Shown here: positions 35,282-59,878 of the stretch, piece by piece
Position numbering within the stretch: position 1 is the first letter of the stretch
Layout: each line of letters starts with the position of its first letter
Assembly: GCF_900100925.1 (NCBI RefSeq)
Contig: NZ_FNKO01000002.1
Coordinates: 1,736,001-1,800,000 of the forward strand
DNA: 64,000 nt
Reading direction: 5' to 3'
Origin: Actinopolyspora saharensis
GTDB lineage: Bacteria > Actinomycetota > Actinomycetes > Mycobacteriales > Pseudonocardiaceae
Notes under the pieces: model-generated
Databases searched by the model: none
What the model was told of the DNA's origin: nothing
The model's input: only the letters and a program-made list of their open reading frames with translations
Translations under genes and position numbers: made by a program

Positions 35282-35457
35282 TGGCGGAACCTCTCGCGGG
35301 CTCTCGCTCCGGGGAGGCCCGACATCGGGTAGCCACCTACACAACGTCGGGCCTTCCTCGCGAGAGCACCACGAGAGAACCCGCGGCGGTGCCGACTGCG
35401 TAGGCTCACAGCGCTCTCGTCGGCGTGGGGCTCTTGATCGGGAGCTCCTGTCCGGGG
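35282..35457 (+). repeat. Interspersed structured repeat, copy A (module 1)
   Basis: This is the first of three copies. It starts TGGCGGAACCTC and has nested inverted arms: CTCTCG/CGAGAG (35291-35296 / 35372-35377), CTCTCG/CGAGAG (35301-35306 / 35361-35366), AGGCCCGAC/GTCGGGCCT (35315-35323 / 35346-35354) and apical GTAG/CTAC (35329-35332 / 35337-35340). A conserved tail GAACCCGCGGCGGTGCCGA and GGCTCACAGCGCT follows. The outer stems differ in sequence from copies B and C but still pair. Confidence 0.85.
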
Positions 35458-35479
35458 CGTTGGCGCGCTGGAGGGGAAT

Positions 35480-35560
35480 TCTGCGCACTTCCGATGCAGG
35501 GCGCCGACTCACGTGCCGGTTACCCGACCACGCGAGCAAAGCTCTGTTGCGGACTCTCGA
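35480..35560 (+). repeat. Interspersed repeat, module 2 (copy A)
   Basis: Contains TCTGCGCACTTC, then GGCGCCGACTCACGTGCCGG (35500-35519) and CAAAGCTCTG (35537-35546). The same two blocks recur with identical 37-nt spacing at 60034-60053 and 60071-60080, and the first block alone near 22143. Confidence 0.75.
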
Positions 35561-35661
35561 AAAGCAAGGCCCCGAGATCGCCTCTCGGGGGCAGTGACCA
35601 TCCGGTTCGAAGGTAGCGCGGTATCGAGACCACGAGGAGAACGCCGTCACGGGACGGTTCG

Positions 35662-37020
35662 GTGACGTCCACGCGTCGGGGCCGGGGGCTGTCCGCGCTG
35701 GCTCTGACGGTGCTGTGCGTGCTGGCCGGGCTGACGATGCTGCTCGGCTACGCGCACAAGGCCCGCTGCACGGGCCCCACCTTCGACGAGTCGGGCAGCT
35801 CCGGACCGGAGCTGTGGAAGCGCTCCTACGGGGTGGTGTGCTACTCGGACCTGCAGCAGCTGTGGGGCTCGCGGAACCTCGACGAGATGGTCGTGCCGTA
35901 CGTGAACGGCGGGATCACCGACAGCGGGCAGCTGTACGGCGGCGTGGTCGAGTACCCGGTGCTGATCGGTGTGCTCATCTGGCTCGGTTCGCTGCTCGTG
36001 TCCACCGACGCGGGCTTCCTCGCCGCCTCGGCCCTGCTGCTGGCGCCGTTCGGACTGCTCACCGCGTGGTGGCTCGGCCGGTTGAGCAGGTGGCGAGCCC
36101 TGATCTGGGCCTTGGGGCCGCCGCTGGTGCTGTACTCCTTCCACAACTGGGACCTGGCCGCCGCGGCGTGCGCGGTCGCGGCGGTGTACACGGTGCACAG
36201 AGCGGGCAGCGGTCCCCCGCGAAGAGCTGCCGTGTTCGCGGCGGTCCTGCTGGGGCTGGGCGCGGCCGTGAAGTTCTACCCCGGGATTTTCGCGGTTCCG
36301 CTGGCGCTGTACGTGCTCACCGGAGGCCCGCGGGGGGACTCCCCGCCGGAGCGGGCGCGGCGCTTCGACGTGCGCGGCGCGCTGCGCGTGCTCGTCGTGA
36401 CCGCGGGGACCTTCGTGCTGGTGAACCTCCCCTTCGCCGTGCTGGGCTTCCAGGGGTGGCTGGCCTCGTTCCGCTTCCAGATGCAGCGCGCGGTGGACGT
36501 CAGCACCAACTCGATCTGGTACTGGGGGCTGCGCCCGCTGGTGGAGGAGGACCGGTTCGAGTCCCTGGTTGGGGTGCTTTCCCCGGCGCTGATCCTGCTC
36601 TCCTTCGCGCTGGCCTGCTCGCTCGGCATGCGCAGGCGAGCGCTGACGGGGACGTTCCCGTGGATCGCCGTGTCCGCGGCGATGCTGTGCGGGTTCCTGC
36701 TGTTCCACAAGGTGCACTCGCCGCAGTTCGTGCTCTGGTTGCTGCCGTTCTTCGTGCTGCTGCGCGTGCCTGCGGGCTGGGTGGTGGCCTACCTGCTGGC
36801 CGACGCGGCCATGGGGATCGGCTTCTTCCGCTGGATGTACCTGATCAACGCAGAGGAGCCGTACAGCATCTACCAGTCGCTGGCCGCGCAGGCCGTCGTC
36901 ATCGGGGTGTGGGGCCGGGCGGCGTTGCTGGTGGGGCTCTTCGTCGCGTTCCTGCGAGCCCCCGAGACACCGCGGGAGCCCGCCGCGGTGGGATCCGGTG
37001 CTCCCGCGGTGAACTCCTGA
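35662..37020 (+). CDS. GT87-like membrane glycosyltransferase (DUF2029), paralogue 1
   Basis: A 452-residue polytopic membrane protein with about ten helices, of the GT-C class that uses polyprenyl-phosphate mannose or a similar donor at the outer face. The first extracytoplasmic loop contains CYSDLQQLW...EYPVLIGVLIWLG, closely matching CYTDLIPRY...EYPVLTGLFQWVN in the gene at 39614-41305. The later motif AAVKFYPGIFAVPLAL is also shared (ATKLYPLLLLGPVL). The start is GTG 35662. It probably acts in envelope glycan synthesis (arabinogalactan/lipomannan-type). Acceptor and donor are not determinable. Confidence 0.75.
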   Translation: MTSTRRGRGLSALALTVLCVLAGLTMLLGYAHKARCTGPTFDESGSSGPELWKRSYGVVCYSDLQQLWGSRNLDEMVVPYVNGGITDSGQLYGGVVEYPVLIGVLIWLGSLLVSTDAGFLAASALLLAPFGLLTAWWLGRLSRWRALIWALGPPLVLYSFHNWDLAAAACAVAAVYTVHRAGSGPPRRAAVFAAVLLGLGAAVKFYPGIFAVPLALYVLTGGPRGDSPPERARRFDVRGALRVLVVTAGTFVLVNLPFAVLGFQGWLASFRFQMQRAVDVSTNSIWYWGLRPLVEEDRFESLVGVLSPALILLSFALACSLGMRRRALTGTFPWIAVSAAMLCGFLLFHKVHSPQFVLWLLPFFVLLRVPAGWVVAYLLADAAMGIGFFRWMYLINAEEPYSIYQSLAAQAVVIGVWGRAALLVGLFVAFLRAPETPREPAAVGSGAPAVNS

Positions 37021-37105
37021 CTCGCGCTCCTGGGCCCTCGGTCGGTGACGCAGGCCCGGCGGGGGTTCGCGACCTGCCCGCGGCGAGCCGTTGGATACTC
37101 GGCTC

Positions 37106-37561
37106 ATGTGCGGTTTCTGGTCGTTCCGTCCGGCGAGGCCCGAGGACGCCGAGTGGCTGGTCGAGTTGAAGGAGCAGGCCATGCGCCCCGATCTGGAACG
37201 TCTGGGGGTGTGGGACCGCGAGCGGGTGCGGCAGCGCTTCTTCGACGAGTTCGTCCCGGCCAACAGCCGCGTGGTGCTGCTGGACGACTCGGCCGCGGGC
37301 ATGATCGCGGTGCGTCCCGAACCGGACGCGCAGTGGGTCGAGCACTTCTATCTGCACCCGTGGGCGCGGGGACGGGGGATAGGCGGTCGGGTGTTGAGCA
37401 GCGTGCTGGAGCTGCACCGCGACCACCGCCCGTTCCGGCTGCTGGTGGTCCGCGGCAGCGCCGCGCGACGGCTCTACGAGAGGCACGGTTTCGTGCACGA
37501 GCACGACGAAGGGGTCGATCAGGTGCTGACTACCGTCGAGCACCGGCGAGCCGCCTCGTAG
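37106..37561 (+). CDS. GNAT family N-acetyltransferase
   Basis: A 151-residue GNAT protein with the CoA loop in HPWARGRGIGGRVLSSVLEL and the final motif SAARRLYERHGFVHE. ATG 37106 stands 7 nt after GATACT (leaderless). An in-frame TTG at 37091 falls inside the promoter and is rejected. The acceptor is unknown. Confidence 0.82.
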   Translation: MCGFWSFRPARPEDAEWLVELKEQAMRPDLERLGVWDRERVRQRFFDEFVPANSRVVLLDDSAAGMIAVRPEPDAQWVEHFYLHPWARGRGIGGRVLSSVLELHRDHRPFRLLVVRGSAARRLYERHGFVHEHDEGVDQVLTTVEHRRAAS

Positions 37562-37626
37562 AACTCCTCCGCGCGCTGCTCACGGCGACCCGGTCGCCCC
37601 GGGGAGCCGATTCCCACCTTCCGCGG

Positions 37627-38589
37627 TCAGCCGTCCGCGTACAGCTCGGCGAGCTCGCGGGCGCCCCGGGCCGCCTCGGCCCTGGCCTCGGGCGGTTCGA
37701 GCACTTCGGCGTCGGCGCCGAACTGGAGCAGCTGGCGCACCGCTCCCAGGGCGGGGCAGTGCAGCTCGATCTCCGTCCACTCCCCGGTGCTGTGCTCGCC
37801 CTCGGGGCGCACGCTCATGCGCGATCCGATGATCCTGCCCGCCATGTCCAGCCGGTGAGTGCGCATCCGGGCCCGCACGCGGACCAGCTCGGGCCGCTCC
37901 TGCACGTCGCGCCGCAACTTCTCCCAGACCTCGGCCAGTGACACGTCCCGGTGACGCGCCGCTCGCCCGGTGAGCTCGGTGCGCGCTATCCGGTCGGCCC
38001 GGAACAGTCGCGGCGAGCGCCGGTGGTCGGCGACCAGGTACCACACGCCCGCTTTGCAGACCAGCCCGTACGGGTCCACCGCGTACTCGCGGGTGGTGGT
38101 CTCCCCGCTGTGCCGGTACTCGATGCGGACTCCGCTGTCGGAGAGCACGGCCGAGTGCAGCAGGTCGAGCTCGGCCGGCGGTCGCGCGTCGCTCATCCAG
38201 CGGTCCGGGTCGACGAGCACGCGCCCGCTGGTGCGTTCCGCGGTGGGCCGGTGGGTTTCCGGAAGAGCGCTGAGCACTTTGCGCAGCGCCGAGCCCAGCG
38301 CCCCGCTCAACCCGAGGGCGCCGTGGACGTTGCCGGTGGCGGGCACGAAGAGCGCTCGTGCCTCGTCGGGGGTGAGCCCGCTGACGTCGGTGCGAAACCC
38401 CGACAGCAGGCGAACGCCGCCGTTCCGGCCGCGCTCGGTGTAGACCGGCACGCCCGCGGCGGACAGCGCCTCCACGTCGCGGTGGATCGTGCGCGGGGAG
38501 ACCTCGAGCCGCCCGGCCAGCTCGGTGGCGCGCGCTCTCCTCTCGACCTGCAGGATCAGCAGGATCGCCAGCAGTCGATCTGATTTCAC
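37627..38589 (-). CDS. WYL-domain transcriptional regulator (HTH_11/DeoR-like)
   Basis: A 320-residue YafY-type regulator. The N-terminal winged helix (VKSDRLLAILLILQVERRAR, then VSPRTIHRDVEALSAAGVPV) is followed by a WYL ligand-sensing domain (EYAVDPYGLVCKAGVWYLVADH) and the C-terminal WCX region. The GTG at 38587-38589 lies behind GGAGGCCGGAGCC. It is divergent from the maleylpyruvate-isomerase-like gene at 38707. The perfect dyad GACAG-TTC-CTGTC (38645-38657) in the 117-bp spacer is a candidate operator controlling both genes. Confidence 0.86.
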   Translation of the reverse strand: MKSDRLLAILLILQVERRARATELAGRLEVSPRTIHRDVEALSAAGVPVYTERGRNGGVRLLSGFRTDVSGLTPDEARALFVPATGNVHGALGLSGALGSALRKVLSALPETHRPTAERTSGRVLVDPDRWMSDARPPAELDLLHSAVLSDSGVRIEYRHSGETTTREYAVDPYGLVCKAGVWYLVADHRRSPRLFRADRIARTELTGRAARHRDVSLAEVWEKLRRDVQERPELVRVRARMRTHRLDMAGRIIGSRMSVRPEGEHSTGEWTEIELHCPALGAVRQLLQFGADAEVLEPPEARAEAARGARELAELYADG

Positions 38590-38644
38590 GGCTCCGGCCT
38601 CCGCTCGTCGCGTCCGGTCCGCACCAGAATGCCGGAGGAAACAC

Positions 38645-38657
38645 GACAGTTCCTGTC
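38645..38657. promoter_or_regulatory. Candidate WYL-regulator operator
   Basis: GACAG (38645-38649) and CTGTC (38653-38657) form a perfect inverted repeat around TTC, in the middle of the short divergent spacer. The position strongly suggests a regulatory role; the bound protein is inferred. Confidence 0.5.
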
Positions 38658-38706
38658 CGGTTTCCGCGCGAGACTCGGCCGCGACACGATCGGAGAGGAG
38701 GACCGG

Positions 38707-39291
38707 ATGAGCACCATGGCGGACCCGCGCCCCTGGTTGAGCGGGGCCACGGAACAGCTGTCCACACTGGTGGCCGAAGTGCGGCCCGCCCAGTTGGAGG
38801 CGCCGACGCCCTGCACGGAGTTCGACGTTCGGGCGCTGCTGGATCACGTGGTCGTGATGACCGGGTGCTACGCGAACCTCGGAGCGGGCGAGACCGATGC
38901 CGCGGCCGCCACCCCGCCGCCGCGGAACGCGGGTGACCGAGAGTGGGCCGAGGTCTACGCCGCGGAGGCCGCGCGGTTGAACGAGGCCTGGGCCGACGGA
39001 GCCGCGCTCGACAGGAAGATGTCGCTGCCCTGGGGAGAGCTGCCTGGGCGGGAAGCGCTGCTCGGATGCCTGCTGGACACAGTGACCCACAGCTGGGACC
39101 TCGCCCGGGCGCTGGGGATCGAGGACGACCGGCTGGACGAGGAACTGGCCGAGAAGACCCTGGAGGTGGCGCGGGAGATCATGCCCGCCGAGCGGCGCGG
39201 ACGGCCGACACCGTTCGAACCGGTGCGGCCCGTCGAGCCGGAAGCACCGGCGGCCCGGAGGTTGGCGGCCTGGTTGGGGCGTTGGCCTTGA
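38707..39291 (+). CDS. TIGR03086 / mycothiol-dependent maleylpyruvate-isomerase-like protein
   Basis: A 194-residue helical-bundle protein of the DinB-like superfamily. The metal-binding histidines fall in the usual places: DHVVVMTG near the N-terminus and DTVTHSWDLARALG in the middle. The N-terminal PAQLEAPTPCTEFDVRALLDHV is diagnostic of TIGR03086. Family members use mycothiol, the actinobacterial thiol, in isomerase or S-transferase reactions. ATG 38707 has GAGGAGGACCGG upstream. Copy B of the interspersed repeat begins 41 nt after the stop codon. Confidence 0.8.
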   Translation: MSTMADPRPWLSGATEQLSTLVAEVRPAQLEAPTPCTEFDVRALLDHVVVMTGCYANLGAGETDAAAATPPPRNAGDREWAEVYAAEAARLNEAWADGAALDRKMSLPWGELPGREALLGCLLDTVTHSWDLARALGIEDDRLDEELAEKTLEVAREIMPAERRGRPTPFEPVRPVEPEAPAARRLAAWLGRWP

Positions 39292-39613
39292 AGCCTCCAG
39301 GTCCGGGGTGCCGGTGGCCTAGCGGGTCACTTGGCGGAACCTCAGTCGGCGCCCGGCTGCGGGTGCCCCGACATCGGGTAGCGACCTACACAACGTCGGG
39401 GCCGTCCTCGCCGGGCACTCGACTGAGAACCCGCGGCGGTGCCGATGGCTTAGGCTCACAGCGCTCGCGTTGGGGTGGCGCCCTGGTCGGGAGTTTCCGT
39501 CCCGGTTTCGTGGTGGCTCGGTTGCCCCGCGGCGGTGCCGACTGCCTGGGGCTCGTGAGCACCTGTGTCGGGCCCGTCCGGAGAGGCGGCCGGGCGGGCC
39601 CGTTCGGGGGCGA
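39292..39613 (+). other. Convergent intergenic region filled by repeat copy B
   Basis: This 322-bp space between two convergent genes is mostly repeat copy B (39332-39505) and a further partial duplicate of its tail (39525-39554). No gene is supported. Confidence 0.6.
39332..39505 (+). repeat. Interspersed structured repeat, copy B (module 1)
   Basis: Nested arms are CTCAGTCG/CGACTGAG (39341-39348 / 39420-39427), CCGGC/GCCGG (39353-39357 / 39410-39414), CCCCGAC/GTCGGGG (39366-39372 / 39395-39401) and GTAG/CTAC (39378-39381 / 39386-39389). It ends with the conserved tail GAACCCGCGGCGGTGCCGA. The block CCCCGCGGCGGTGCCGACTG recurs again at 39525-39544. Confidence 0.87.
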
Positions 39614-41305
39614 TCAGCTCGTGCGCGGAGGGCGGGACGGCACCGGTGAGCTCGCCCGACCGATTCGGAGCCTGTCCGGAAGGGACGGCGCGGGCAGCAC
39701 GAACCGGTCCCGCGTGCCGTCGAGGAACCCGCCGTGCGGGTCGGCCGTGAGCGTCCGGCGCACCTTGTCCTTGCCCGGGCGCAGGATCTCCCCGACGATG
39801 AGCGCGCAGATCACCACGACCATCGCGTCGCGCACCAGTACCGCCCCGAGGAACCAGCCCTCGGGCAGTCCCTTGTTCGAGGTCCCCAGGAAGTAGTACA
39901 TCCGAGGGGCCCAGACGGCGGCGTCGACGAGCATCCAGCTGATCAGCAGCCTCCAGCGCGGTACGGCCAGCACTGCCAGCGGCACCAGCCACAGCGAGTA
40001 CTGCGGACTCCACACCTTGTTGGTCAGCAGGAAAACCGCGACGACGAGGAAGCACAGCTGGGCCAGTCTGGGACGCACCGGTGCGGACAGCCCCAGCCAG
40101 GCGATCAGCGCGCAGCCGGTCAGCAGCAGCGCGAAGCTGACCGCGTTCAACACCGCGGGAACCTCGCCGTGGGAGAGCGGGCCGTCGAAACCTGCCCAGC
40201 CGGTGTAGTGCATCAACGCGTTGTACAGCGAGTCCGGATCGGCCGGACGGGTGTTGTTGAGCCGGAAGAACTCCCACCAGCCACGTGGGAACAGCACCAT
40301 GATCGGCAGGTTCACGACCAGCCACGAACCGAGCGCGGCGATCAGGCAGCGCAGCCCTTCGCGGATTCTTCCCGCCCGCAGGGAGAGCACGAGCACCGGG
40401 CCGAGCAGCAGCAGGGGGTAGAGCTTGGTGGCCGCGCCGAGGCCGAGCAGCACTCCCGCCAGCCCCACGCGTCTGCGCGCCCAGGCGAGCAGTCCCGTGG
40501 TGGCCAGCGCGGTGGCCAGCGCGTCGAAGTTGGTGAAGGCGTGCACGAACACCAGCGGTGAGATGGCCGCCAGCGCGGCGTCCCAGATCCGGAACCGGCA
40601 CAGCCGGGTCAGCGCCCACACCGTGACCAGCCAGGCGCAGGCCAGCCAGAACGCGCTGATGTCGAAGTAGACCACACTGGACGCCGAGGTGGGCAGCAGT
40701 CCGTACTGCGCCAGGCTCGTCCAGCCGTCGGTGAACTTGGCGTTGACCCACTGGAACAACCCGGTCAGCACCGGGTACTCCATGTAGCGGACCTGCTGCT
40801 GCGGTGTCCCCCGGTTCTCCACCCAGGAGGTCTTGTACGGGAAGGCGTCGTCGGAGGCCAGGTCGCCTTTTTCGTAGCGGGGGATGAGGTCGGTGTAGCA
40901 CAGCGCGGTGTACTGGCGGTGCTGGCGCCAGTCGACCGACTGGTGACCCTGCCCGGTCTCGTAGGTCTGCGTGCAGGGAGCCTTGAGCAACCAACCCGAG
41001 GCGAGCAGCAGCACCGCGAGCAGCAGGATCACTCGCAGTGGTGTCCAGAACCACTGCCTGCCGATCTGGGCGTGTCTGCCGAGCCCGCCGCCGAAGGGTT
41101 TGCTGAGCTCGGCGGCGAGCGGCTCCGTCCAGGTGGGAGCCACCCGTTGGGCCGGGCCGAGCGAGTCGTTGTCCACGGGAGCGGATTGCCGCGGCCGCCG
41201 GTTCTCGGCGGTTTCCGCTCTGGTTCGCCGCTGGCTCCCGGAGTCCGCCGTGGGCCGCTCGTTCGGTGGTTGCTCGGGTTGATCCGGCTCGGACACGGTC
41301 CGCAT
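39614..41305 (-). CDS. GT87-like membrane glycosyltransferase, paralogue 2
   Basis: A 563-residue polytopic protein with a charged cytoplasmic N-terminus (about 85 residues) and roughly ten membrane helices. The first large loop holds CYTDLIPRYEKGDLASDD and MEYPVLTGLFQWVNAKF. Mycobacteria have a comparable membrane protein next to ponA1. It shares its loop pattern with the gene at 35662. A role as a lipid-linked-sugar-dependent glycosyltransferase in the envelope is inferred from the family. It follows the small membrane gene at 41375 and ponA on the same strand. Confidence 0.75.
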   Translation of the reverse strand: MRTVSEPDQPEQPPNERPTADSGSQRRTRAETAENRRPRQSAPVDNDSLGPAQRVAPTWTEPLAAELSKPFGGGLGRHAQIGRQWFWTPLRVILLLAVLLLASGWLLKAPCTQTYETGQGHQSVDWRQHRQYTALCYTDLIPRYEKGDLASDDAFPYKTSWVENRGTPQQQVRYMEYPVLTGLFQWVNAKFTDGWTSLAQYGLLPTSASSVVYFDISAFWLACAWLVTVWALTRLCRFRIWDAALAAISPLVFVHAFTNFDALATALATTGLLAWARRRVGLAGVLLGLGAATKLYPLLLLGPVLVLSLRAGRIREGLRCLIAALGSWLVVNLPIMVLFPRGWWEFFRLNNTRPADPDSLYNALMHYTGWAGFDGPLSHGEVPAVLNAVSFALLLTGCALIAWLGLSAPVRPRLAQLCFLVVAVFLLTNKVWSPQYSLWLVPLAVLAVPRWRLLISWMLVDAAVWAPRMYYFLGTSNKGLPEGWFLGAVLVRDAMVVVICALIVGEILRPGKDKVRRTLTADPHGGFLDGTRDRFVLPAPSLPDRLRIGRASSPVPSRPPRTS

Positions 41306-41374
41306 GTTACGGAGCGGCCGAAGCGCGGGTGAGCGCGGCCGGTGGTCATCGGGCCGCTCGCCCGCGGTGGACGG

Positions 41375-41818
41375 TCATGCGGGTGCGTCGTGTCGGTGGG
41401 GTGGTTCGCGGTGGTTTCTGCGGGCGAGGTGCGCGGCTGTGAGGGCGCAGGCCGCTGCTGCGATCAGGAAGGCGTACAGCAGCGGGGCGACGTGGTCGGG
41501 GACGAGGTCCGTGGTGTTGCCGTTCGCCCACACGCATTCGGCGCTCGGCGGGAACAGGCCGTAGTCGATCCGCTCGAAGCCACGCCCGCGAGGTCCTCCC
41601 CGCGAGGAGAGCAAACACCTCTCCGCCACATCCAGTCCGGCGAACTTGTGCCAAGACCCCCAGCAGTACGTGAGGGCTGCGAGACAGAGGAAGATCACCG
41701 CCCCGTCCGCGGGGGCTCTGATCGGTCGGCGACTACCCGTGATCAAGAGGTGTAGGACCGTAACCACGAGTACGCACAGGACAACCAGCGGCAGCAGCAG
41801 GAGAGCGACCAAGAGCAC
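41375..41818 (-). CDS. Small polytopic membrane protein
   Basis: A 147-residue protein with three predicted membrane helices: LLVALLLLPLVVLCVLVVTVL at the N-terminus, GAVIFLCLAALTYCWGSWH in the middle, and APLLYAFLIAAAACALTAAH near the C-terminus. Three Cys occur in or near the second helix and the following loop. GTG 41816-41818 is preceded by AGGAGGTTCAG. I do not recognise a family. Its place between ponA and a membrane glycosyltransferase suggests an envelope role. Confidence 0.68.
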   Translation of the reverse strand: MLLVALLLLPLVVLCVLVVTVLHLLITGSRRPIRAPADGAVIFLCLAALTYCWGSWHKFAGLDVAERCLLSSRGGPRGRGFERIDYGLFPPSAECVWANGNTTDLVPDHVAPLLYAFLIAAAACALTAAHLARRNHREPPHRHDAPA

Positions 41819-41921
41819 CTGAACCTCCTGTCCGTCCGCTCCCGCGGACTCGCCGATGTGGACGGGCCACCGCGGACATCATCGGACGACCGCCCACGCC
41901 GCGTCGAGCGGCGGTGACGAA

Positions 41922-41955
41922 AGGAGCGCGGCCGGTCGGAATCGGCCGCGCTCCT
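41922..41955 (-). terminator. 13-bp perfect hairpin after ponA
   Basis: AGGAGCGCGGCCG (41922-41934) and CGGCCGCGCTCCT (41943-41955) pair perfectly around an 8-nt loop, 72 nt past the ponA stop codon. This is a clear terminator candidate. Confidence 0.72.
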
Positions 41956-42026
41956 GGTCACGCGCTCTGTTCGGGTGTGCGGACTCCGGAAGTCACGACG
42001 CCTCGTGCTCCGGTCGAGCCCACGGG

Positions 42027-45632: not shown

Positions 45633-45726
45633 GAGTAGTCGTCCTCCGGGACAGGCGTCGGCAGACGCCGTTCGGTGCGTTCACGTCGACCCGGCAGCCG
45701 GGGGTGCTGCCGGAGAGGTTGCGTGC

Positions 45727-46131
45727 TCACTCGGCGGCAGTTCTTCGTCCTCCACCGCGGCCGTGCCGGCCCCCGGTTCCAAGGACGTACGACTGCACCA
45801 GGTGGTTCCAGTTACATGTACGACAAACCTCGACGACGAACACGTTGAACTCTTCGAACATGGTGGCCATCCGGGCCAGCTCGGCGTTGCTCCGCGCCGA
45901 GTTGTCGGCGTGCTTGAGCTGGTCACCGAAGACCCAGGATACGTAGGTCAGCCGTTCCTTGCGGCATACCGGACAGACCACGTCGCTGGACTCACCATGG
46001 AACTTGGCGGCCTGTAGCAGGTACGGGCCGGCGTCGCAGACCTCCATCACCCCGACGCGGCCAGCATGGAGCTGCGCGAGCAGCGACCGTCGCCGCAACG
46101 CGTAATCCACCACTTGCCGTTGGGTCCGCAC
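45727..46131 (-). CDS. DUF5318 zinc-ribbon protein
   Basis: A 134-residue protein starting RTQRQVVDYALRRRSLLAQL. It has two CxxC pairs (VVCPVCRKE and EVCRTCNWN) that should bind one zinc ion, with a His nearby. It matches the conserved protein upstream of ponA1 in mycobacteria. The GTG at 46129-46131 stands 6 nt after TACGCT; the GTG at 46135-46137 is in frame but falls within the promoter. The function is unknown. It is co-oriented with ponA (94 nt apart) and divergent from padR. Confidence 0.8.
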   Translation of the reverse strand: MRTQRQVVDYALRRRSLLAQLHAGRVGVMEVCDAGPYLLQAAKFHGESSDVVCPVCRKERLTYVSWVFGDQLKHADNSARSNAELARMATMFEEFNVFVVEVCRTCNWNHLVQSYVLGTGGRHGRGGGRRTAAE

Positions 46132-46309
46132 GCCCACAGCGTACGTGTCGTGCGCCCGATCTCCATGGGCCGTTCAGGGAACGCCCTCCGGAGGAGTGGT
46201 GTGTGACACCCGAACCCGGCTCTCGTCCCCGGCGGAGCGGGGCGCTCCACGCCTGCGCGCGGTCGGGCTGTAGCACGGGACACACCTGCCGGTCTGGTTT
46301 CCGAAGTGA

Positions 46310-46328
46310 TATATCGAGGCGATATAAT
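46310..46328 (+). promoter_or_regulatory. PadR operator overlapping a TATAAT -10 box
   Basis: TATATCG (46310-46316), AGG and CGATATA (46320-46326) form a 7-bp inverted repeat typical of PadR-family operators. TATAAT (46323-46328) is a perfect -10 element inside the right arm. Bound PadR would block the padR promoter, giving autorepression. Confidence 0.72.
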
Positions 46329-46377
46329 CCGATCGGAGTGTTGCTCGTTCGGAGCTTCACTCGCAGGAGGGGTGCCG

Positions 46378-49005: not shown

Positions 49006-49147
49006 GGTCCCGCCAATGTATAGCCAACGCCCCGGTGTCCAGAACGCTCCGGTGCCGTGAACGCGCTCGCGCGGCACACCCGGGCAGTCCTCCCGGAAGG
49101 GTCCACCCGGGAGTGTCCGTTCAGGAGAGTGCTCCGCCTCGCGGCTT

Positions 49148-52065: not shown

Positions 52066-52107
52066 ACGGTGGAGATTATCCGCGACGGGCCCGGTTGAAA
52101 CTCCTGA

Positions 52108-52680
52108 TCACTGTTCCGTGGACGACTCGACCAGCATGTCGTACGGGATCACCGCGCGTATCGGGTCGTCGAGGTTGAGCCCCAGGTCCATTCCGGCGAG
52201 CAGCTTGGGCAGTTGCTCACCCGGGACGACGCGGTGGCTCGGCCAGTCCTCGGGCACCCGCTTCGCCGAGGTGCAGGCGGGCACGAGCCTGCTGCCGTCG
52301 TCCAGCTCCGCCTCGTAGAGGGACTCGTCCTCGGAGTTCTCGGCGTAGAGCACCAGCTCGGCGGCCAGCACGGCAGGGGGCAGTTCGGACTCGGGGGCCT
52401 GCCCGGTGGAGATGCGCTCGAGAACCCGCTCGAGCTCGTTGACCGGTTCGATCGTGCCGACCCTGGGCTCGTACTCCTCGTTCGGGTGGAACTCCTGCTC
52501 GATCTCGCCGTCCGAATCGATTCGGAAGGCGCCGACCACGCCCTCGGGTGGCACGTCCTCACCGGAGCTCTCGTAGGAGGGGTCGACGATGTAGAGCCAG
52601 CTGTCCGGGGTCTGCTTCGCCTGCTCCCGCATCTCGTCGGTGATCTGGGGGACGTAGGGCTGTGCCGGTTCTTCGGTCAT
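52108..52680 (-). CDS. Type VII secretion-associated (SseB-like) protein
   Basis: A 190-residue, strongly acidic protein. The DSWLYIVDPSYESSGEDVPPEGVVGAFRID motif and the following DGEIEQEFHPNEEY agree with actinobacterial proteins annotated as type VII secretion-associated, often found singly. It has no signal or membrane segment. No ESX core genes occur in the window, so the link to secretion rests only on family naming. The start is ATG 52680. Confidence 0.6.
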   Translation of the reverse strand: MTEEPAQPYVPQITDEMREQAKQTPDSWLYIVDPSYESSGEDVPPEGVVGAFRIDSDGEIEQEFHPNEEYEPRVGTIEPVNELERVLERISTGQAPESELPPAVLAAELVLYAENSEDESLYEAELDDGSRLVPACTSAKRVPEDWPSHRVVPGEQLPKLLAGMDLGLNLDDPIRAVIPYDMLVESSTEQ

Positions 52681-52933
52681 CTCGTGACGGTCCTTTCGGA
52701 TACTGTGCTGGGCGCTCGCGCGGTCCCTCCCGACGTTTCACGCCGTGGAGTGAGTACTCCGCGTCGACCTCGTAGACGGTGTCAGACGTGTGCGAGGGAA
52801 CCGCGTTCGGTCTCGATGTGACAACGGACACGGTCCGCGTGGGTGAGCGGGATGCCTCCCGCGGCCCAGACGTGCAGACTTAACCACCGATGCTCGTGTC
52901 GGGGCGAGCAGGTGGGTGGGAGGTGGTTTGCTC

Positions 52934-53368
52934 ATGATCGGACAGCGGGAGGCGTTGCGACTGGCCGGATGTGACACGTTCGACCCGAGAGGCCATCGGC
53001 TCGGGGTCGTGGGTCGGATCCTGGTGGACGCCGACACCGAACAGCCCGTGTGGGCGACGGTGCAGACCGGTTTGTTCGGAACCAACGAGAGTCTCGTCCC
53101 CCTGGAGGGGGCGGCGTTCGACGGTGACACGTTGACCGTCGCCGTTGCCAGGGACTCCGTGCGGAAAGCGCCGTGCGTGCCGCTTCAGGAAGGTGATCTC
53201 GAAGCGGAGCGGGAGAGGGAGCTCTACCTGCACTACGGCATGGAGGACGGGAGACGGCCGCGTGCTCCGGAACCCGCGGTCGGCAACACCACGAACTCGA
53301 CCGAGGCCGTGGTGAGCTACGTGCGAGCTGTCAGCTCGCGGTTGCGCCGCCTGGTCGCATCCCCCTGA
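52934..53368 (+). CDS. PRC-barrel domain protein
   Basis: A 144-residue protein. The first 85 residues form a PRC-barrel (DTFDPRGHRLGVVGRILVDADTEQPVWATVQ, then a hydrophobic core ESLVPLEGAAFDGDTLTVAV). The remainder is charged and helical. PRC-barrels act as small protein- or RNA-binding modules. ATG 52934 has GGGAGGTGG upstream. The gene is divergent from the type VII-associated gene; a stress-related role seen in relatives is only inference. Confidence 0.72.
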   Translation: MIGQREALRLAGCDTFDPRGHRLGVVGRILVDADTEQPVWATVQTGLFGTNESLVPLEGAAFDGDTLTVAVARDSVRKAPCVPLQEGDLEAERERELYLHYGMEDGRRPRAPEPAVGNTTNSTEAVVSYVRAVSSRLRRLVASP

Positions 53369-53654
53369 GTCGGGGGTGCCGTGCGGGCGCTGTCGTCGGT
53401 GTGGCCGCGGTCTCGCGTGGAAGCGGGCCGGGCCCATCCGGCGGCACTTCGCACCCGGGGTCCCGCCGGTGCCGCGGCGGAGCGCAGCTCGGGTGATCAC
53501 GGCGGATCACTCCGCGGGGACTAAGCCGTGCGGTTGGATCGCCTCCTCCGAAAGTGGGTTCCTGAAGGTGTCCGGTTCGGATAAGTTGCCGTTCGGGGCC
53601 GGGTGACCACCCGAAACCCGAGACCGGGCCGTGCATCCACCGAGAGGGGCCGTC

Positions 53655-54434
53655 GTGCCGAGCACTCAAGCCGAAATGCTGCGACCCGCACAGCCGAGAA
53701 CCGCGAAGCAGTCCCCGAGTGAACGCGAGATCCGCACGAACGCCGGCCGCACCGTCGATTCCGTCGCGCGAAGCGCCCGGACCTCGCGGGAGGGCGTGCT
53801 GCGTATCGTTCACGGTGCCGAGTGCATCGGAAGCGTGGCCCACCGCTTGCAGCGCGACGCCACGCGCGTCGTGCGCGGCGTGGTGAAACCCCCCTACGTG
53901 GCGACCGACTCCCTGGACGCGCTGGAGTGCCACAAGCTCTCCGAGGGCGTCGACTACCAGGTTCTCTACGATCGCTCCGCGCTGTCCCACCGCTCACAGC
54001 TGGACAGGACCTCGCGGATGCTGCAGCTGGGCGAGCAGGCTCGGGTCGTTCACCTGGCTCCGGTGAAGGTGCTGCTCGTCGACGACGAGATCGGGCTGCT
54101 GCCGCTCACGAGCACCTCCCAGACCATCGACAGTGCCGTGCTGCTGCGCGGTTCCACCATGCTCTCCGCGATGAGCAGCGTTTTCGACGATCTCTGGCGG
54201 CTGGCCGCGCCGCTGTGCGCGAACGGCGGGGACGAGGTCACCGACGCTCCCTCGGAGGAGGAGCGCTGGATCCTGTCCCTGCTGGCCGCGGGAGCCACCG
54301 ACGAGGCGATCGGGCGCCACATGGGGTTCAGCTCGCGCACCGCGCACCGCAGGGTTCGCGAGCTGATCTGGCGGCTGGGAGTGCAGACCCGTTTCCAGGC
54401 CGGAGTGCGCGCGGTGAAGCTCGGCTGGCTCTGA
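53655..54434 (+). CDS. LuxR-type HTH transcriptional regulator
   Basis: A 259-residue regulator. A C-terminal LuxR/GerE-like helix-turn-helix ([19 protein letters not shown], then [20 protein letters not shown]) follows a central region (about residues 60-185). That region resembles the sugar-binding/PLD-like domains of TrmB-like regulators ([20 protein letters not shown]). There is no receiver Asp. The GTG at 53655 has GAGAGGGG upstream; a GTG at 53631 is an alternative. Its targets are unknown. Confidence 0.75.
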
Positions 54435-54516
54435 GCACCAGCGGGCCCCCGACCGGGGTTCCGCCACGCAACCCGCCACGCAACCGGCGCCGGTGACCCT
54501 TATTAACCTCGGAGGA

Positions 54517-54924
54517 GTGAGTAGAGGTTCGCCTGACCCGACCCACCTTCGCGAGACCGTGGCCGGCACGCTCGGTTGGCTGAGCGGGCACGAGTCCCGT
54601 CCGGAGCGGAGCGAGCTCGCCGGGGCCGTTCGGATGACGCTGCGCGCTCTCGAGGGGGTCGCTCCGGGGCGGAGCGTCGAGGTGCGGGTGCCGCCGTTCG
54701 GGGCGGTGCAGTGCGTGCCGGGACCCGAGCACACCAGAGGAACCCCGCCGAACGTGGTCGAGACCGACCCGCACACGTGGTTGTCACTGGTCACGGGGAG
54801 GTTCTCCTGGCAGGGGGCCGTGGCCGACGGGCTCGTCTCGGCCTCGGGGTCCCGAGCCGACCTGTCGCACTGGCTTCCGCTGCTGCGCTTCGACTCCGCC
54901 GGTGACGAGCCAGCGGAGAAGTGA
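54517..54924 (+). CDS. Sterol-carrier-like (SCP2-fold) protein upstream of purF
   Basis: A 135-residue protein that occupies the conserved slot before purF, as in mycobacteria. The N-terminal part contains [27 protein letters not shown] and the C-terminal half [23 protein letters not shown], a segment typical of SCP2-like domains (xDPxTWLxLxxG). The start is not secure: GTG 54517 has GGAGGA immediately before it and TATTAA at 54501-54506; GTG 54493 is the in-frame alternative. The function is unknown and a lipid ligand is speculation. Confidence 0.68.
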
Positions 54925-54969
54925 CCGGGCACACGTTCGGGAGGTGAACACCGGAGGATGACACGCAGT

Positions 54970-54976
54970 TTATACT
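54970..54976 (+). promoter_or_regulatory. Probable purF promoter -10 box
   Basis: TATACT (54971-54976) in the 89-bp space before purF fits a sigma-70-type -10 element. Transcription would begin near 54983 and give a leader of about 30 nt with GGGAG before the GTG. Confidence 0.5.
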
Positions 54977-55013
54977 GAGGTGTAACTCCGACTCCGTCAT
55001 CAGGGAGTTTTCG

Positions 55014-56585
55014 GTGGTCACCGACCTGCCATATCCGGGAAGAGCCGAGTCGACCGAGCAGGACGTCCCACGTGAGGAGTGTGGCGTCTTCGGCGTGTGG
55101 GCCCCTGGCGAGGAAGTCTCCAAGCTGGCCTTCTACGGACTTTTCGCGCTGCAACATCGAGGTCAGGAAGCCGCGGGGATCTCCGTCGGAGACGGTTCCC
55201 AGATGCTGGTCTACAAGGACCTCGGCCTGGTGAGCCAGGTGTTCGACGAGCAGGTGCTCGCCTCGCTGCGGGGGCACGTGGCCGTCGGCCACGCCCGCTA
55301 CTCCACCACGGGCGGTGGCAGCTGGGAGAACGCGCAGCCGACCTTCCGGACCACCGTGGCCGGCAGCGGGCTCGCTCTCGGGCACAACGGAAATCTCGTG
55401 AACACCGCGGAGCTGTTCGAGCGCGCGGTGGCCGAGGGGGCCGACGCCTCCACACCCAACGCCTCCGCGGCCACGGGCTCCCAGCGGGCCACGACCGACA
55501 CCGACCTGGTGTGCGGGCTGCTGGCGGCGAACGCGGCCGACAAGGGGGTCGAGCAGGCGGCGATGGAGCTGCTGCCGACCGTGCGCGGCGCGTTCAGCAT
55601 GGTCTTCTCCGACGAGTCGACGCTCTACGCGGCCAGGGACGGCCACGGCGTGCGCCCGCTGGTGCTCGGCAGGCTGGAACGCGGCTGGGTGGTGGCCAGC
55701 GAGACGGCGGGCCTGGACATAGTGGGGGCCTCCTTCGTGCGGGAGGTCGAACCGGGAGAGCTGCTGGCGATCGACTCCGAGGGGCTGCGTTCCCAGCGCT
55801 TCGCCGCGCCGGAGCCGAAGGGCTGCGTGTTCGAGTACGTCTACCTGGCCCGCCCCGACACCACGATCGCGGGACGGTCGGTGCACAGCACCAGGGTGGA
55901 CATCGGTCGCAAGCTGGCTCGGGAGAACCCGGTGGAGGCGGACCTGGTGATGCCGGTCCCCGAGTCCGGAACCCCCGCGGCCGTGGGCTACGCCGAGGAG
56001 TCCGGCATCCCGTACGGCAACGGTCTGGTCAAGAACGCCTACGTCGGCCGCACGTTCATCGAGCCGTCGCAGACCATTCGCCAGCTCGGCATCCGCCTCA
56101 AGCTCAACCCGCTGCGCGAGGTGATCCGGGGCAAGCGGCTGGTGGTCGTCGACGACTCGATCGTGCGCGGAAACACCCAGCGAGCCCTGGTCCGGATGCT
56201 GCGCGAGGCCGGAGCTCTCGAAGTGCACGTGCGCATCGCCTCACCGCCGGTGCGCTGGCCGTGCTACTACGGCATCGACTTCGCCTCCCGCGCCGAGCTC
56301 GTGGCGAACGGGCTCGACCTGGACGGGGTGCGTCGCTCGATCGGAGCAGACTCGCTCGGCTACATCTCCCTGGACGGGTTGGTGGCGGCCTCCGAGCAAC
56401 CGCGCAACCGGTTGTGCGCGGCCTGCTTCGACGGGCAGTACCCGATTCCGATCCCGGAGGAGGACCGGCTCGGCAAGCACATGTTGGAGGACTCCGATGG
56501 TGCGCGGAGCGAGGAATCCTCCGGAGCGGCCGACCCCGTTTTCCCCAGTGGTTACGGGGCCGAGGACGCGGTGGGCCGGCCGTGA
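55014..56585 (+). CDS. purF: Amidophosphoribosyltransferase
   Basis: A 523-residue enzyme that makes 5-phosphoribosylamine from PRPP and glutamine, the first step of purine synthesis. A 22-residue propeptide precedes catalytic Cys23 (EECGVFGVW). The glutaminase domain contains HRGQEAAGIS and GHNGNLVN. The PRPP site is VVVDDSIVRGNT. Cysteines in KGCVFEYVYLAR, WPCYYGIDF and LCAACFDGQ fit the [4Fe-4S] type known from Bacillus. The start is GTG 55014 behind GGGAG. purM follows 175 nt downstream. Confidence 0.96.
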   Translation: MVTDLPYPGRAESTEQDVPREECGVFGVWAPGEEVSKLAFYGLFALQHRGQEAAGISVGDGSQMLVYKDLGLVSQVFDEQVLASLRGHVAVGHARYSTTGGGSWENAQPTFRTTVAGSGLALGHNGNLVNTAELFERAVAEGADASTPNASAATGSQRATTDTDLVCGLLAANAADKGVEQAAMELLPTVRGAFSMVFSDESTLYAARDGHGVRPLVLGRLERGWVVASETAGLDIVGASFVREVEPGELLAIDSEGLRSQRFAAPEPKGCVFEYVYLARPDTTIAGRSVHSTRVDIGRKLARENPVEADLVMPVPESGTPAAVGYAEESGIPYGNGLVKNAYVGRTFIEPSQTIRQLGIRLKLNPLREVIRGKRLVVVDDSIVRGNTQRALVRMLREAGALEVHVRIASPPVRWPCYYGIDFASRAELVANGLDLDGVRRSIGADSLGYISLDGLVAASEQPRNRLCAACFDGQYPIPIPEEDRLGKHMLEDSDGARSEESSGAADPVFPSGYGAEDAVGRP

Positions 56586-56760
56586 GACCGGTGGGCGCCG
56601 GGGCGTTCCGCCCCGCTGCCGCGCTTCGCGGTGAGCCGGCCCGCAACTCGGCGGTTCCGTGCTCGTTACCCGAGTCGTCCATGATCACGCGTAGCGTGGG
56701 GTCAGCCGCACGAACGCGCACACTCGATCGTCAAATCGCGCACCAGATCTGGAGCAAGAC

Positions 56761-57885
56761 GTGTCCGAAGACCTGATGACAGGGTCGAATTCCGGTACCG
56801 CCGATCCGGACGGGCCCGCGGCCACCTATGCCGACGCCGGAGTCAGCATCGAAGCGGGCGACGAGGCAGTGGACCGGATGCGCCCGTGGGCACAGCGCGC
56901 CACACGTCCGGAAGTGCTCGGCTCGCTCGGCGGTTTCGCGGGGCTGTTCCAGCTCAAGTTGGACCGGTGGAACGAGCCGGTGCTGGCCTCGTCCACCGAC
57001 GGGGTCGGGACGAAGCTGGCCGTGGCCCAGGCCATGGACGTCCACGACACCGTGGGCATCGACCTGGTCGCGATGGTGGTGGACGACCTCGTGGTCTGCG
57101 GGGCGGAACCGATGTTCCTCCAGGACTACATCGCCACGGGGGCGGTGGACCCGGACCGGATCGGCAGCCTGGTCAAGGGGGTCTCCGAGGGCTGCGTGCA
57201 GGCCGGCTGCGCGCTGCTCGGTGGGGAGACCGCCGAGCACCCGGGGATGATGTCGCCGGGTGAGTACGACATATCGGCCACCGGCGTGGGTGTCGTCGAG
57301 GCCGACGACGTGCTCGGTCCGGATCGGGTGCGCCCCGGGGACGTGTTGATCGGAATGGGTTCCTCCGGGCTGCACTCCAATGGTTACTCGCTGGCGCGGC
57401 GGGTGCTGCTCGAGCAGGCGAGGATGCCGCTTTCCGGGCACGTCGAGGAGTTCGGGCGGACCCTGGGCGAGGAGCTGCTCGAACCGACCCGCATCTACGC
57501 GAAGGAGTGCCTGTCACTGGCTGCCGAGGCCGAGGTGCGCACTTTCGCGCACGTCACCGGAGGCGGCCTCGCGGCCAATCTGGAGCGGGTGCTGCCGCAG
57601 GGACTCGGCGCGGTGGTCGACAGGGGAAGCTGGACCCCCGACCCCGTTTTCGGGCTGATCGCCCAGCGCGGGCGGATCGACACCGCCGAGATGGAGCGCA
57701 CCTTCAACATGGGGGTCGGCATGGTCGCCGTGGTGGCCGCGGAGGACGTGGACCGGGCGCTGGCCGTGCTCACCGCGCGGCACTCGCCGGCCTGGGTGCT
57801 CGGCGAGGTGGCCAAGGAGTCGGCCGTTCCGGACCTGGAGGGCGAGCAGCGCGTGGTGCTGCGCGGCAATCACCCGAGGTTCTGA
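56761..57885 (+). CDS. purM: Phosphoribosylformylglycinamidine cyclo-ligase (AIR synthase)
   Basis: A 374-residue ATP-dependent enzyme that closes the imidazole ring of AIR in purine synthesis. Typical motifs are TYADAGVSIEAGDEAVDRM, VLASSTDGVGTKL, GIDLVAMVVDDLVVCGAEP, ALLGGETAEHPGMM and THVTGGG-like FAHVTGGGLAANLERVLP. GTG 56761 starts the gene. A bidirectional hairpin (58170-58234) separates it from the convergent DUF3073 gene. Confidence 0.96.
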   Translation: MSEDLMTGSNSGTADPDGPAATYADAGVSIEAGDEAVDRMRPWAQRATRPEVLGSLGGFAGLFQLKLDRWNEPVLASSTDGVGTKLAVAQAMDVHDTVGIDLVAMVVDDLVVCGAEPMFLQDYIATGAVDPDRIGSLVKGVSEGCVQAGCALLGGETAEHPGMMSPGEYDISATGVGVVEADDVLGPDRVRPGDVLIGMGSSGLHSNGYSLARRVLLEQARMPLSGHVEEFGRTLGEELLEPTRIYAKECLSLAAEAEVRTFAHVTGGGLAANLERVLPQGLGAVVDRGSWTPDPVFGLIAQRGRIDTAEMERTFNMGVGMVAVVAAEDVDRALAVLTARHSPAWVLGEVAKESAVPDLEGEQRVVLRGNHPRF

Positions 57886-58360
57886 AGGAGCCGTTGGAGT
57901 CTCGCGCTGAGCTCGTCGTGGCCGCTTTCGCGGCGGCGCCGATCGATCGGGTGATCGTTTCGGCGTCGCCCGCGCCGGAAGCAGCGCGCTGATCCGCAGC
58001 ACGACGGGGAAGCGGCGGTCCGCGACGGCGCGCAGGAGATCGGGTGCCGGCACGTCGGTCGGCACCCTGCTGCGCTTTTCGGAAAGCCTGGCGGAATCGC
58101 GCACCGCGGCCTGCGCGCTGCGCCGCCGTGCGACTCGTCCGCGACTCGCGCGTCCCTCAGCAGGGCACAGTTCGGGGACCGTCGGGTGGGTGCGCTCGAC
58201 AGGAGCCGCCACCCACCCGCGGTGGTGTCCGAACATTCGGTCGTGTCCCCGGCGCGTCAGAGTGGCCGGACAGCTGTACCGGCACTCGACCCAACCGCTA
58301 ACCGGACCTCGACAGCACGATCACCCGCGGGAGCGGTTCCCGCGACTCGCGGGTGAACGT
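57886..58360. other. 475-bp convergent intergenic region after purM
   Basis: There is no supported gene. A large bidirectional hairpin (58170-58234) is the only clear element; the rest is GC-rich unique sequence. Confidence 0.5.
58170..58234. terminator. Two-part bidirectional hairpin between purM and DUF3073
   Basis: An outer stem GTTCGGGGAC / GTGTCCGAAC (58170-58179 / 58225-58234, one mismatch) encloses an inner perfect stem GGGTGGGTG / CACCCACCC (58184-58192 / 58210-58218) with a 17-nt loop. It can serve both converging genes. Confidence 0.6.
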
Positions 58361-58534
58361 TCACCTTCGGTAGTCGTCTTCCCCGTCGTAGTAGTAGTCG
58401 TCCTCTTCATACCACTCTGGGGTGTAGTCAGCGGAAAGCTCACGCTCCAACGCCTTGAGGTCAACACTGGGGGAGTTGTACTTCAGCTCGCGGGCCACTT
58501 TTGTCTGCTTGGCCTTGGCACGGCCGCGCCCCAT
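58361..58534 (-). CDS. DUF3073 protein
   Basis: A 57-residue protein, MGRGRAKAKQTKVARELKYN at the N-terminus and an extremely acidic Tyr/Asp/Glu-rich C-terminus (YEEDDYYYDGEDDYRR). This is the well-conserved actinobacterial DUF3073 family found next to purM in mycobacteria. A basic head and acidic tail suggest nucleic-acid or ribosome association, but the function is unknown. ATG 58532-58534 is preceded by GAGGGGGTCG. Confidence 0.88.
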   Translation of the reverse strand: MGRGRAKAKQTKVARELKYNSPSVDLKALERELSADYTPEWYEEDDYYYDGEDDYRR

Positions 58535-58779
58535 GGCTCGACCCCCTCGCGCAGGGTTTGCGGGGCGGCCAGGGGAACGGCGGCCCCGCATGAATCTCAA
58601 CAACCTTTTCCTGTAACTACCGTACCGTGCCGATGCGGTTCTTCGCGACGTGGTGCGCCCAGCGAGCCGACTCCGCAACGGTGACGTGAGCCGCACCGGA
58701 CGCGGACGTGGAATCGGCCGGTGCGGAGTGGGGGCGGGCGCCGCCGGAAGCGGTGCGCGGACATGGCAACATACACGCT

Positions 58780-59664
58780 GTGCCGGAGCCGTTCGTCGCC
58801 TACATGAGGGTGTACGAGCCCCTGTCATCGTTCGAGTCGCCCCGACAGGAACAACTCGCCGAAGCGCTGGATCAGGGTGCCGTGGATCCGGTCGGGGTCG
58901 GTGCTCGCGAGCAGAACAGGTGGCTGCGTAGCCAACTGTCCATCCGACCGCGTCTTCTCCCCGGGGAGGGAATCGACGGAACACCGCAGGGGCAGGAGGA
59001 GGTGCTCGCCCTCGACCCCGAGGACGTTCCCGCCGAGTCCGCCGACACCGTCGGTCCGGGACCGCTGGTCTGCCCGCTCGACATCCGGGGACGCGCGGCA
59101 GCCGCACTGGTCGGTTTCATCGGAGCCGCCGACCCGCCGCTGCGCACGGCGGCGTTGACGATGCCCGAGGACACCGCCAAGTCCAAGGCCTCGGCCGTGG
59201 TCAACGAGATGTCCGACAGCGCGGTGCACGTGATCTCGTCCACCTGGACGATCCCGCTGCCGTGGTTCGCCGTGGTCGACCCGGAGCAGCGCGTGCTCTT
59301 CGAGGACTCGCACGGCGGGGTCGAACGGGTCTACTGGCGCACGCCGATGGCGGAGGCCAGGCGCAGGGTCTCGCGGGCGCACACCGTCACCAGGAACACG
59401 CTGGGCGACGAGGGGCCGCCGAAGATCCTGCGGGAGACCGGGCGCTGGCTGGAGCGGTTCCACCCGCACTCGGCGGTCGAACTCGACTACGGCGGCCTGG
59501 TGCGCATGATGCGGGACGAGGACCTGCGCGCCGACACCTCGGCCGAGGACGTGCACGCGATCGTCGACGCCATGGAGCTCGGGCACACCAACGAGGTGGC
59601 GGAGCGCTACGAGGCGCTGCGCGAGTTCTGGGCGGAACTGGCAGCGCACGAACGCTACAACTGA
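58780..59664 (+). CDS. Conserved hypothetical protein
   Basis: A 294-residue soluble protein without signal or membrane segments. Recognisable stretches are EPFVAYMRVYEPLSSF at the start, VCPLDIRGRAAAALVGFIG, IPLPWFAVVDPEQRVLFEDS, and HTNEVAERYEALREFWAELA near the end. No catalytic motif or family can be named with confidence. GTG 58780 lies a few bases after CATACA (leaderless); ATG 58804 is an alternative. Copy C of the interspersed repeat begins 40 nt after its stop codon. Confidence 0.68.
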   Translation: MPEPFVAYMRVYEPLSSFESPRQEQLAEALDQGAVDPVGVGAREQNRWLRSQLSIRPRLLPGEGIDGTPQGQEEVLALDPEDVPAESADTVGPGPLVCPLDIRGRAAAALVGFIGAADPPLRTAALTMPEDTAKSKASAVVNEMSDSAVHVISSTWTIPLPWFAVVDPEQRVLFEDSHGGVERVYWRTPMAEARRRVSRAHTVTRNTLGDEGPPKILRETGRWLERFHPHSAVELDYGGLVRMMRDEDLRADTSAEDVHAIVDAMELGHTNEVAERYEALREFWAELAAHERYN

Positions 59665-59703
59665 CCGGTCTGCTCGAGTGGGCCCTCTGCTCGGCGGGTC
59701 GCT

Positions 59704-59878
59704 TGGCGGAACCTCAGTCGGCGCCCGGCTGCGGGTGCCCCGACATCGGGTAGCGGCCTACACAACGTCGGGGCCGTCCTCGCCGGGCACTCGACTGAGA
59801 ACCCGCGGCGGTGCCGGTGGCTCGGGCTCAGAGCGCTTTCGTTGGTGTGGGCCTGTTGGTCGGGAGTTTCTGTTCCTG
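59704..59878 (+). repeat. Interspersed structured repeat, copy C (module 1)
   Basis: Stems are identical to copy B: CTCAGTCG/CGACTGAG (59713-59720 / 59792-59799), CCCCGAC/GTCGGGG (59738-59744 / 59767-59773), and apical GTAG/CTAC with loop CGGC where copy B has CGAC and copy A CCAC. The tail GAACCCGCGGCGGTGCCGG and GGCTCAGAGCGCT follows. Confidence 0.87.

Follow-up and report, generated by a model that had tools for sequence, protein, structure and literature searches.

A window of 64,000 nucleotides from the genome of the salt-loving actinobacterium Actinopolyspora saharensis (contig NZ_FNKO01000002.1, positions 1,736,001 to 1,800,000) carries three intergenic copies of a hairpin element, which we call F1. 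The copies (A, B and C) begin at positions 35282, 39332 and 59704, and their sequences agree with the description given in the original prediction, which had been made from the letters of the window alone. That prediction proposed a shared element of about 175 bp. We found that the well-defined part is a core of 105 nt, running in each copy from TGGCGG to CCCGCGG and forming one long hairpin, and that the remaining 70 nt or so are a looser tail that is only partly constant. The count of three was real but too low, because a fourth match lies on the minus strand at 59952-60055 and the whole genome holds 123 matches. The features of the three loci are listed below, with scores in bits from a covariance model (R1) built from 44 copies.

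34488 to 35246, plus strand: gene upstream of copy A, AP_endonuc_2 TIM barrel
35247 to 35281, plus strand: leader A, between the TAG stop and the hairpin; its final part resembles TTGCNTRGGTGGTTNCG
35282 to 35386, plus strand: F1 hairpin, copy A, stem types A/A/g, 104.3 bits
35387 to 35457, plus strand: tail of copy A, beginning with GGCGGTGCCG
38629 to 39291, plus strand: gene upstream of copy B, MDMPI_N domain
39292 to 39331, plus strand: leader B
39332 to 39436, plus strand: F1 hairpin, copy B, stem types B/B/c, 127.2 bits
39437 to 39505, plus strand: tail of copy B
58690 to 59664, plus strand: gene upstream of copy C, no Pfam match
59665 to 59703, plus strand: leader C
59704 to 59808, plus strand: F1 hairpin, copy C, stem types B/B/c, 125.1 bits
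59809 to 59878, plus strand: tail of copy C
59952 to 60055, minus strand: hairpin of a second subfamily (F2), the fourth match of the window, 59.8 bits, 37 nt past the stop of the asparaginase-like gene
60093 to 61061, minus strand: asparaginase II-like gene, the 3' end of which bears the F2 copy

The plus-strand stops upstream of A, B and C end at 35246, 39291 and 59664, respectively, which places the cores 35, 40 and 39 nt downstream, within the 35-45 nt predicted. The open reading frames that end there have a GC content at third codon positions of 0.83, 0.86 and 0.88. Copy A lies in a gap between two plus-strand genes, and copies B and C lie in gaps between convergent genes.

The hairpin is composed of five helices: P1 (GCGG/CCGC), P2 (8 bp), P3 (7 bp), P4, which includes a three-pair step (11 pairs together), and P5, which is the GTAG/CTAC helix at the tip that had been recognized in the window. 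Between the helices lie unpaired stretches (AAC/AAC, a TGC-type loop and ATCGG/ACAAC) that are nearly constant across copies, as had also been noted. The stems, on the other hand, vary on both arms together. Copy A has CTCTCGCG/CACGAGAG where copies B and C have CTCAGTCG/CGACTGAG, CTCTCGC/GCGAGAG where they have GCCCGGC/GCCGGGC, and AGGCCCGAC/GTCGGGCCT where they have CCCCGAC/GTCGGGG, so that all three predicted exchanges of both arms are present. Folding z-scores of A, B and C are -8.47, -5.15 and -4.61 (200 dinucleotide shuffles each). In the 44-copy seed of R1, 93.8% of the cells are paired and 17 of the 34 pairs show both-sided change. The larger alignment A4 holds 141 distinct rows, drawn from 99 loci (150 of 151 matches) and including some F2 and chimeric rows; 94.9% of its cells are paired, with both-sided change in 24 of the 34 pairs, although these values lean towards structure as A4 was fitted to the model. 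None of 500 shuffles of A4, which leave the kinship of the copies in place, paired as well, and sliding the partners came nowhere near. The apical GTAG/CTAC helix is fully paired in 134 of the 141 rows. The fold is maintained: loops and tip are nearly constant and the stems vary in a matched manner.

These copies belong to a large family. With copy B as a DNA query and an E limit of 10, we obtained 76 matches in the genome of the window (hereafter G000, with contigs C1 and C2; G001, G005, G009 and so on are relatives). The covariance-model search that the original prediction had proposed returned the 123 matches already mentioned (E up to 1e-3, one place being counted on both strands) and 108 copies of at least 60 bits. 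The latter number is a lower bound, since only 150 candidates were scored and further F2-type matches exist near 60 bits. Ten copies in G000, copy B included, share the score of 127.2 bits. Within the Pseudonocardiaceae, R1 matched 40 of 150 genomes, which represent 13 of 46 genera (26 candidates scored per genome), and across the class it matched two of 394 genomes (10 candidates scored per genome), namely G000 and one more member of the Pseudonocardiaceae. In the genomes searched, matches thus occur only in the Pseudonocardiaceae, where the family may also be scarce (three matches in G006). In a protein search, the closest relatives were Actinopolyspora, followed by Saccharopolyspora and other Pseudonocardiaceae, and A. 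biskrensis came nearest to G000 for the protein used (96%). The possibility that the element is confined to one recent duplication without preference for 3' ends is excluded. The second subfamily, F2, differs from F1 in sequence and has the same layout and GTAG/CTAC tip. F1 and F2 often lie face to face and together make up a composite of some 400 bp; locus C is an example, with copy C followed by the hairpin at 59952-60055. Of the 108 strong copies, 13 are on contig 1 of G000 (2.06 Mb). As a side observation, the 1.65 Mb of this contig from 0.4 to 2.05 Mb hold only four of them, and dnaA lies on the other contig.

To describe placement we called genes with our own hexamer predictor in 81 sources (982,580 bases, window included), of which 77 surround F1 matches or the window and four (L241-L244) are controls without an R1 match, although L244 nevertheless contains a hairpin-less form of the element. 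In G000, a gene on the same strand precedes 91 of the 108 copies. The core starts 30-49 nt after the stop codon in 69 of these 91, compared to 6.7 expected under uniform placement in the same gaps and a maximum of 17 in 2000 simulations; the usual distance is about 37 nt. Among the 33 copies outside first position, 15 are preceded by another element of the array to which they belong. F2 shows the same preference, with a same-strand gene preceding 23 of 30 copies and 18 of those 23 lying at 30-40 nt. In other species and genera, 54 of 60 regular-expression matches follow a same-strand gene, and 48 of the 54 do so at 24-57 nt; this set contains duplicates of some loci, as well as a few matches in which the palindrome is read from the opposite strand. 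Since about 33 nt upstream of the core are partly conserved, the unit as a whole comes almost directly after the stop codon. Among the stops beside F1, TAG is enriched (19 of 75, compared to 101 of 866 genes overall; P-value 0.0005, Fisher test).

The same gene ends carry different hairpins in related species. We compared 42 gene ends at which one or more of three species (G000, G001 and G005) have an element; because the stretches of the relatives were picked around high-scoring F1 matches, the occupancy of gene ends is overstated. Element calls by regular expression also include spurious ones, such as an 'F1' at C2:1775614 and two distant 'F2' in G001. F1 is present in at least two species at 20 of the 42 ends, which give 28 orthologous pairs that are not independent of one another. 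Stem type, scored on the 5' arm, differs in 21 of these 28 pairs and at 14 of the 20 sites. All three helices differ in 14 of the 21 pairs, P3 and P4 in four, P4 only in two, and P2 and P3 in one. At a further level of turnover, one species has F1 where another has F2 at 11 of the 42 ends, and losses and deletions also occur. Locus A has three hairpin types in three species behind the same TAG stop and behind leaders whose last 30 nt are 0.93-0.97 alike (0.97 between leader A and the leaders of G001 and G005), and both arms of the hairpin have switched together. Locus C is occupied in G000, G001 and G005 and element-free in seven other members of the genus (read by eye); in G005 the entire F1-F2 block has the opposite orientation. 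Elsewhere, G000 has a segment of two genes (about 1.8 kb) in the opposite orientation to that in G001 and G005, and either end of the segment is bordered by F1/F2 elements or halves (L207:16674-19012, corresponding to G000:C2:1363673-1366011). The presence of different stem types at the same gene end shows that copies are shuffled by exchange, and much of the covariation is therefore exchange of blocks. The covariation pointed out in the window is real. Where orthologous sites are compared, however, at least part of it comes from exchange of whole hairpins between subtypes, and it is thus weaker evidence for selection on RNA than had been assumed. We also considered the nestedness of the stem differences as support for exchange proceeding from the tip outward (patterns 000, 001, 011 and 111 account for 27 of the 28 pairs), and rejected it as carrying little weight because stem types are linked.

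Incomplete copies point to the hairpin tip. We found 45 partial copies, 32 of which retain the 5' start, nine only the 3' end, and four neither. The 5'-anchored partials end at positions 50-62, at or just past the tip loop, in 26 of 32 cases (20 of 24 in G000), although among these 26 one (L267, end at 53) reads as an internal deletion and another (L190, 77% identity) is a weak match. Both arms of P3 could be typed in 85 distinct copies: 78 have arms of the same type and seven are chimeras, some of them in tandem arrays. Five forms, three of them in G000, consist of leader and tail without the hairpin. On both sides of the inner hairpin stands a direct repeat, GAACC, that is nearly constant, and slippage between these repeats could have deleted the hairpin in the hairpin-less forms. 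Three F1 5' halves (L227, L257; C2:2194792, 947576 and 962572) are followed by the same unrelated motif, GGTCCRGGATTCGYACGRTYTCGCGCGA, which is perhaps a third partner in composites. The window itself holds three incomplete elements:

22114 to 22165, minus strand: 5' half of F2, 81% identity, stopping at the hairpin tip
35496 to 35522, minus strand: F2-type 5' piece of 27 nt
39523 to 39570, plus strand: second tail-like unit without hairpin, 3' of copy B

Comparison with other bacterial repeats gave only partial likenesses. Rfam returned no match at the element, either in the window at the gathering score or at four loci at E up to 10, and our searches of the open-licence PMC literature showed no description of the F1 repeat. 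Integron attC sites and bridge RNAs were also considered and set aside. The BOX elements of pneumococcus form modular mosaic arrays with RNA-like folds. F1/F2 resemble them in both respects, but F1 differs in sequence and architecture and in its strict placement at 3' ends. Enterobacterial repetitive intergenic consensus (ERIC)/RU-1 and other repeats that resemble miniature inverted-repeat transposable elements (MITEs) are intergenic, imperfect palindromes of about 100-130 bp. In size, imperfect palindromy and intergenic position F1 is like these repeats (compare PMC2759123). We saw no terminal inverted repeats accompanied by a varying target duplication in F1, a comparison in which the empty sites are too diverged to align. 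F1 also differs from these repeats in its fixed spacing from stop codons.

The closest likeness is to repetitive extragenic palindromes (REPs) and their composites, the bacterial interspersed mosaic elements (BIMEs). According to PMC3733652, whose main text contains none of the words 'actino', 'streptomyces' and 'saccharo', REPs of the GTAG and CGTC superfamilies lie near the 3' ends of genes, form heterodimers and include subfamilies with alternative complementary stems; GTAG REPs often provide a TAG stop, and CGTC REPs have no known dedicated transposase. F1/F2 share with REPs and BIMEs the high copy number and extragenic position near gene 3' ends (PMC3733652, main text), and the head-to-head heterodimers of F1 and F2 are like BIMEs. 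The alternative complementary stems of F1 and the enrichment of TAG stops beside it are further features of REP subfamilies. F1 departs from GTAG REPs in being a 105-nt structure of five helices and several fixed internal loops rather than a palindrome of 20-40 bp, in having GTAG paired at the tip rather than unpaired at one foot, and in that no gene for a REP-associated tyrosine transposase (RAYT) accompanies F1/F2 in G000, a respect in which they are like the CGTC REPs. By these tests of length, GTAG pairing and RAYT, F1/F2 behaves like a REP/BIME but is not a GTAG REP. The suggestion of a REP-like mobile palindrome is supported by copy number, location, inverted dimers and turnover, although the family is no GTAG REP with a RAYT.

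A mobilizing enzyme was sought by domain. The RAYT-type domain PF01797 has no match in G000, nor in G008, G022, G060, G076 and G087, in all of which at least 26 copies were scored; it occurs in 16 of 40 genomes, with a distribution unlike that of the copy-rich set. The reverse-transcriptase domain PF00078, which would be expected for a retron- or intron-like element, was found in three of 20 genomes, G000 among them, and is missing from most copy-rich relatives. Neither enzyme therefore seems to be required for the present copies, although one may have been lost after the spread. The single PF00078 match of G000 is at C1:1621462-1622088. Ku (PF02735) is present in 15 of 15 genomes, copy-poor ones included; it permits end joining and accounts for no distribution.

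Taken together, we consider it fairly probable that F1/F2 is a REP/BIME-like non-coding repeat family of the Pseudonocardiaceae whose hairpin acts in the 3' end of mRNA and is shuffled among copies. The unit would consist of a leader of about 35 nt, starting at or a few nt past the stop codon, followed by the 105-nt multi-loop hairpin and the tail. As it lies mostly in the sense strand of the preceding gene, it is probably part of the 3' untranslated end of the mRNA. Judging from fold and position, a role of the hairpin as RNA is likely, and it may limit read-through or protect the 3' end just past the terminating ribosome. Of the proposed structured RNA, the fold and the sense placement after genes are supported, and its transcription and function are putative. 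The shuffling may proceed by breakage at the hairpin tip, followed by repair from another copy or by imperfect joining, which would account for the exchanges as well as for chimeric copies made of two halves and for copies truncated at the tip. A loss that extended backwards into the preceding gene would be subject to counter-selection, and this would explain the predominance of 5' halves. Work cited in PMC3733652 describes removal of inverted-repeat structures by SbcCD, for which the stem must be at least 8-16 bp long, and a possible part of SbcCD in tip breakage is suggested only by this literature.

Several observations weigh against this reading. No same-strand gene precedes 17 of the 108 F1 and seven of the 30 F2 copies, and F1 lies antisense in a divergent gap in G009, A. 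xinjiangensis and A. mzabensis (one of the latter two may be G009). Stem type is unchanged at six of the 20 orthologous sites, no T-run follows the hairpins of the three window loci, and kinship of the copies persists in the shuffles of A4. There is no clear evidence of selection on the RNA strand, since the excess of G-U over A-C pairs in the stems is small: 201 G-U/U-G pairs stand against 100 A-C/C-A pairs, but the numbers fall to about 82 and 57 when a fixed G-U pair and a position that is often unpaired are left out, so that this test is a weak sign at best. The antisense copies themselves (L287 of G009; L093 and L095, at 7843-7947 on the minus strand) lie upstream of the gene that in the window precedes copy A.

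Four other explanations have to be weighed against this reading. The element could be a mobile cassette at the DNA level, with the folded single-stranded hairpin cut at its tip by a putative recombinase and gene ends serving as tolerated docking sites. The clustering of breakpoints at the tip, the five hairpin-less forms, and locus C, filled in three genomes (inverted in one) and element-free in seven, fit such a cassette. So does a modest excess in orientation on contig 2, where 70 of 95 copies point away from dnaA compared to 412 of 673 predicted genes (P-value 0.023). However, no candidate enzyme emerged from six copy-rich genomes without PF01797 or from the PF00078 search, and a DNA mechanism alone does not predict a sense-oriented spacing of 30-49 nt from the stop; we regard this explanation as rather doubtful. 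Much the same doubt attaches to a selfish or neutral repeat without any RNA role, in which tip breakage and homologous repair homogenize the copies and stop-proximal positions are simply harmless sites of insertion. Fast turnover at orthologous ends and the near absence of the family from G006 speak for it, but harm avoidance predicts a broad spread rather than 69 of 91 copies within a 20-nt band, and gene ends tend to remain occupied as the type changes (in a sample picked around F1 matches).

The remaining two are far less probable. Self-templated repair, in which template switching inside the hairpin matches the arms without donor or selection, has a precedent in compensatory hairpin changes reported in PMC8794818. 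It should also remove mismatched internal loops, yet the loops are nearly constant, and the arms swapped at orthologous sites belong to types that are frequent in other parts of these genomes; it is already disfavoured and appears very unlikely. A classical intrinsic transcription terminator would explain a strong hairpin past the stop codon, and a terminator-associated element had been among the original suggestions. It is not supported, because no terminator-like site with a T-run is present at the three window hairpins, and there is little chance that it is correct. On the other strand just downstream of locus A, at 35570-35590 (minus), the window has a terminator-like hairpin with a T-rich tail.

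Returning to the REP/BIME-like family with a hairpin in the mRNA 3' end, a bolder form of it can be considered, which we put forward tentatively and judge unlikely as it stands. The gene ends of the Pseudonocardiaceae may hold stop-anchored hairpin slots, in which a tip-cutting process, either dedicated or driven by breakage, swaps subtypes while slot and RNA loops are kept. This would be a transposase-independent shuffling of mRNA 3' structures.

Since close relatives hold different hairpins at the same gene ends, the family offers a natural test case for how REP-like repeats reach these positions. It also carries a warning, in that covariation in interspersed repeats may stem from exchange between copies and not from slow compensatory selection. 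If the RNA role is true, F1/F2 would be a 3'-end element at many dozens of genes in one genome, in a group related to antibiotic producers.

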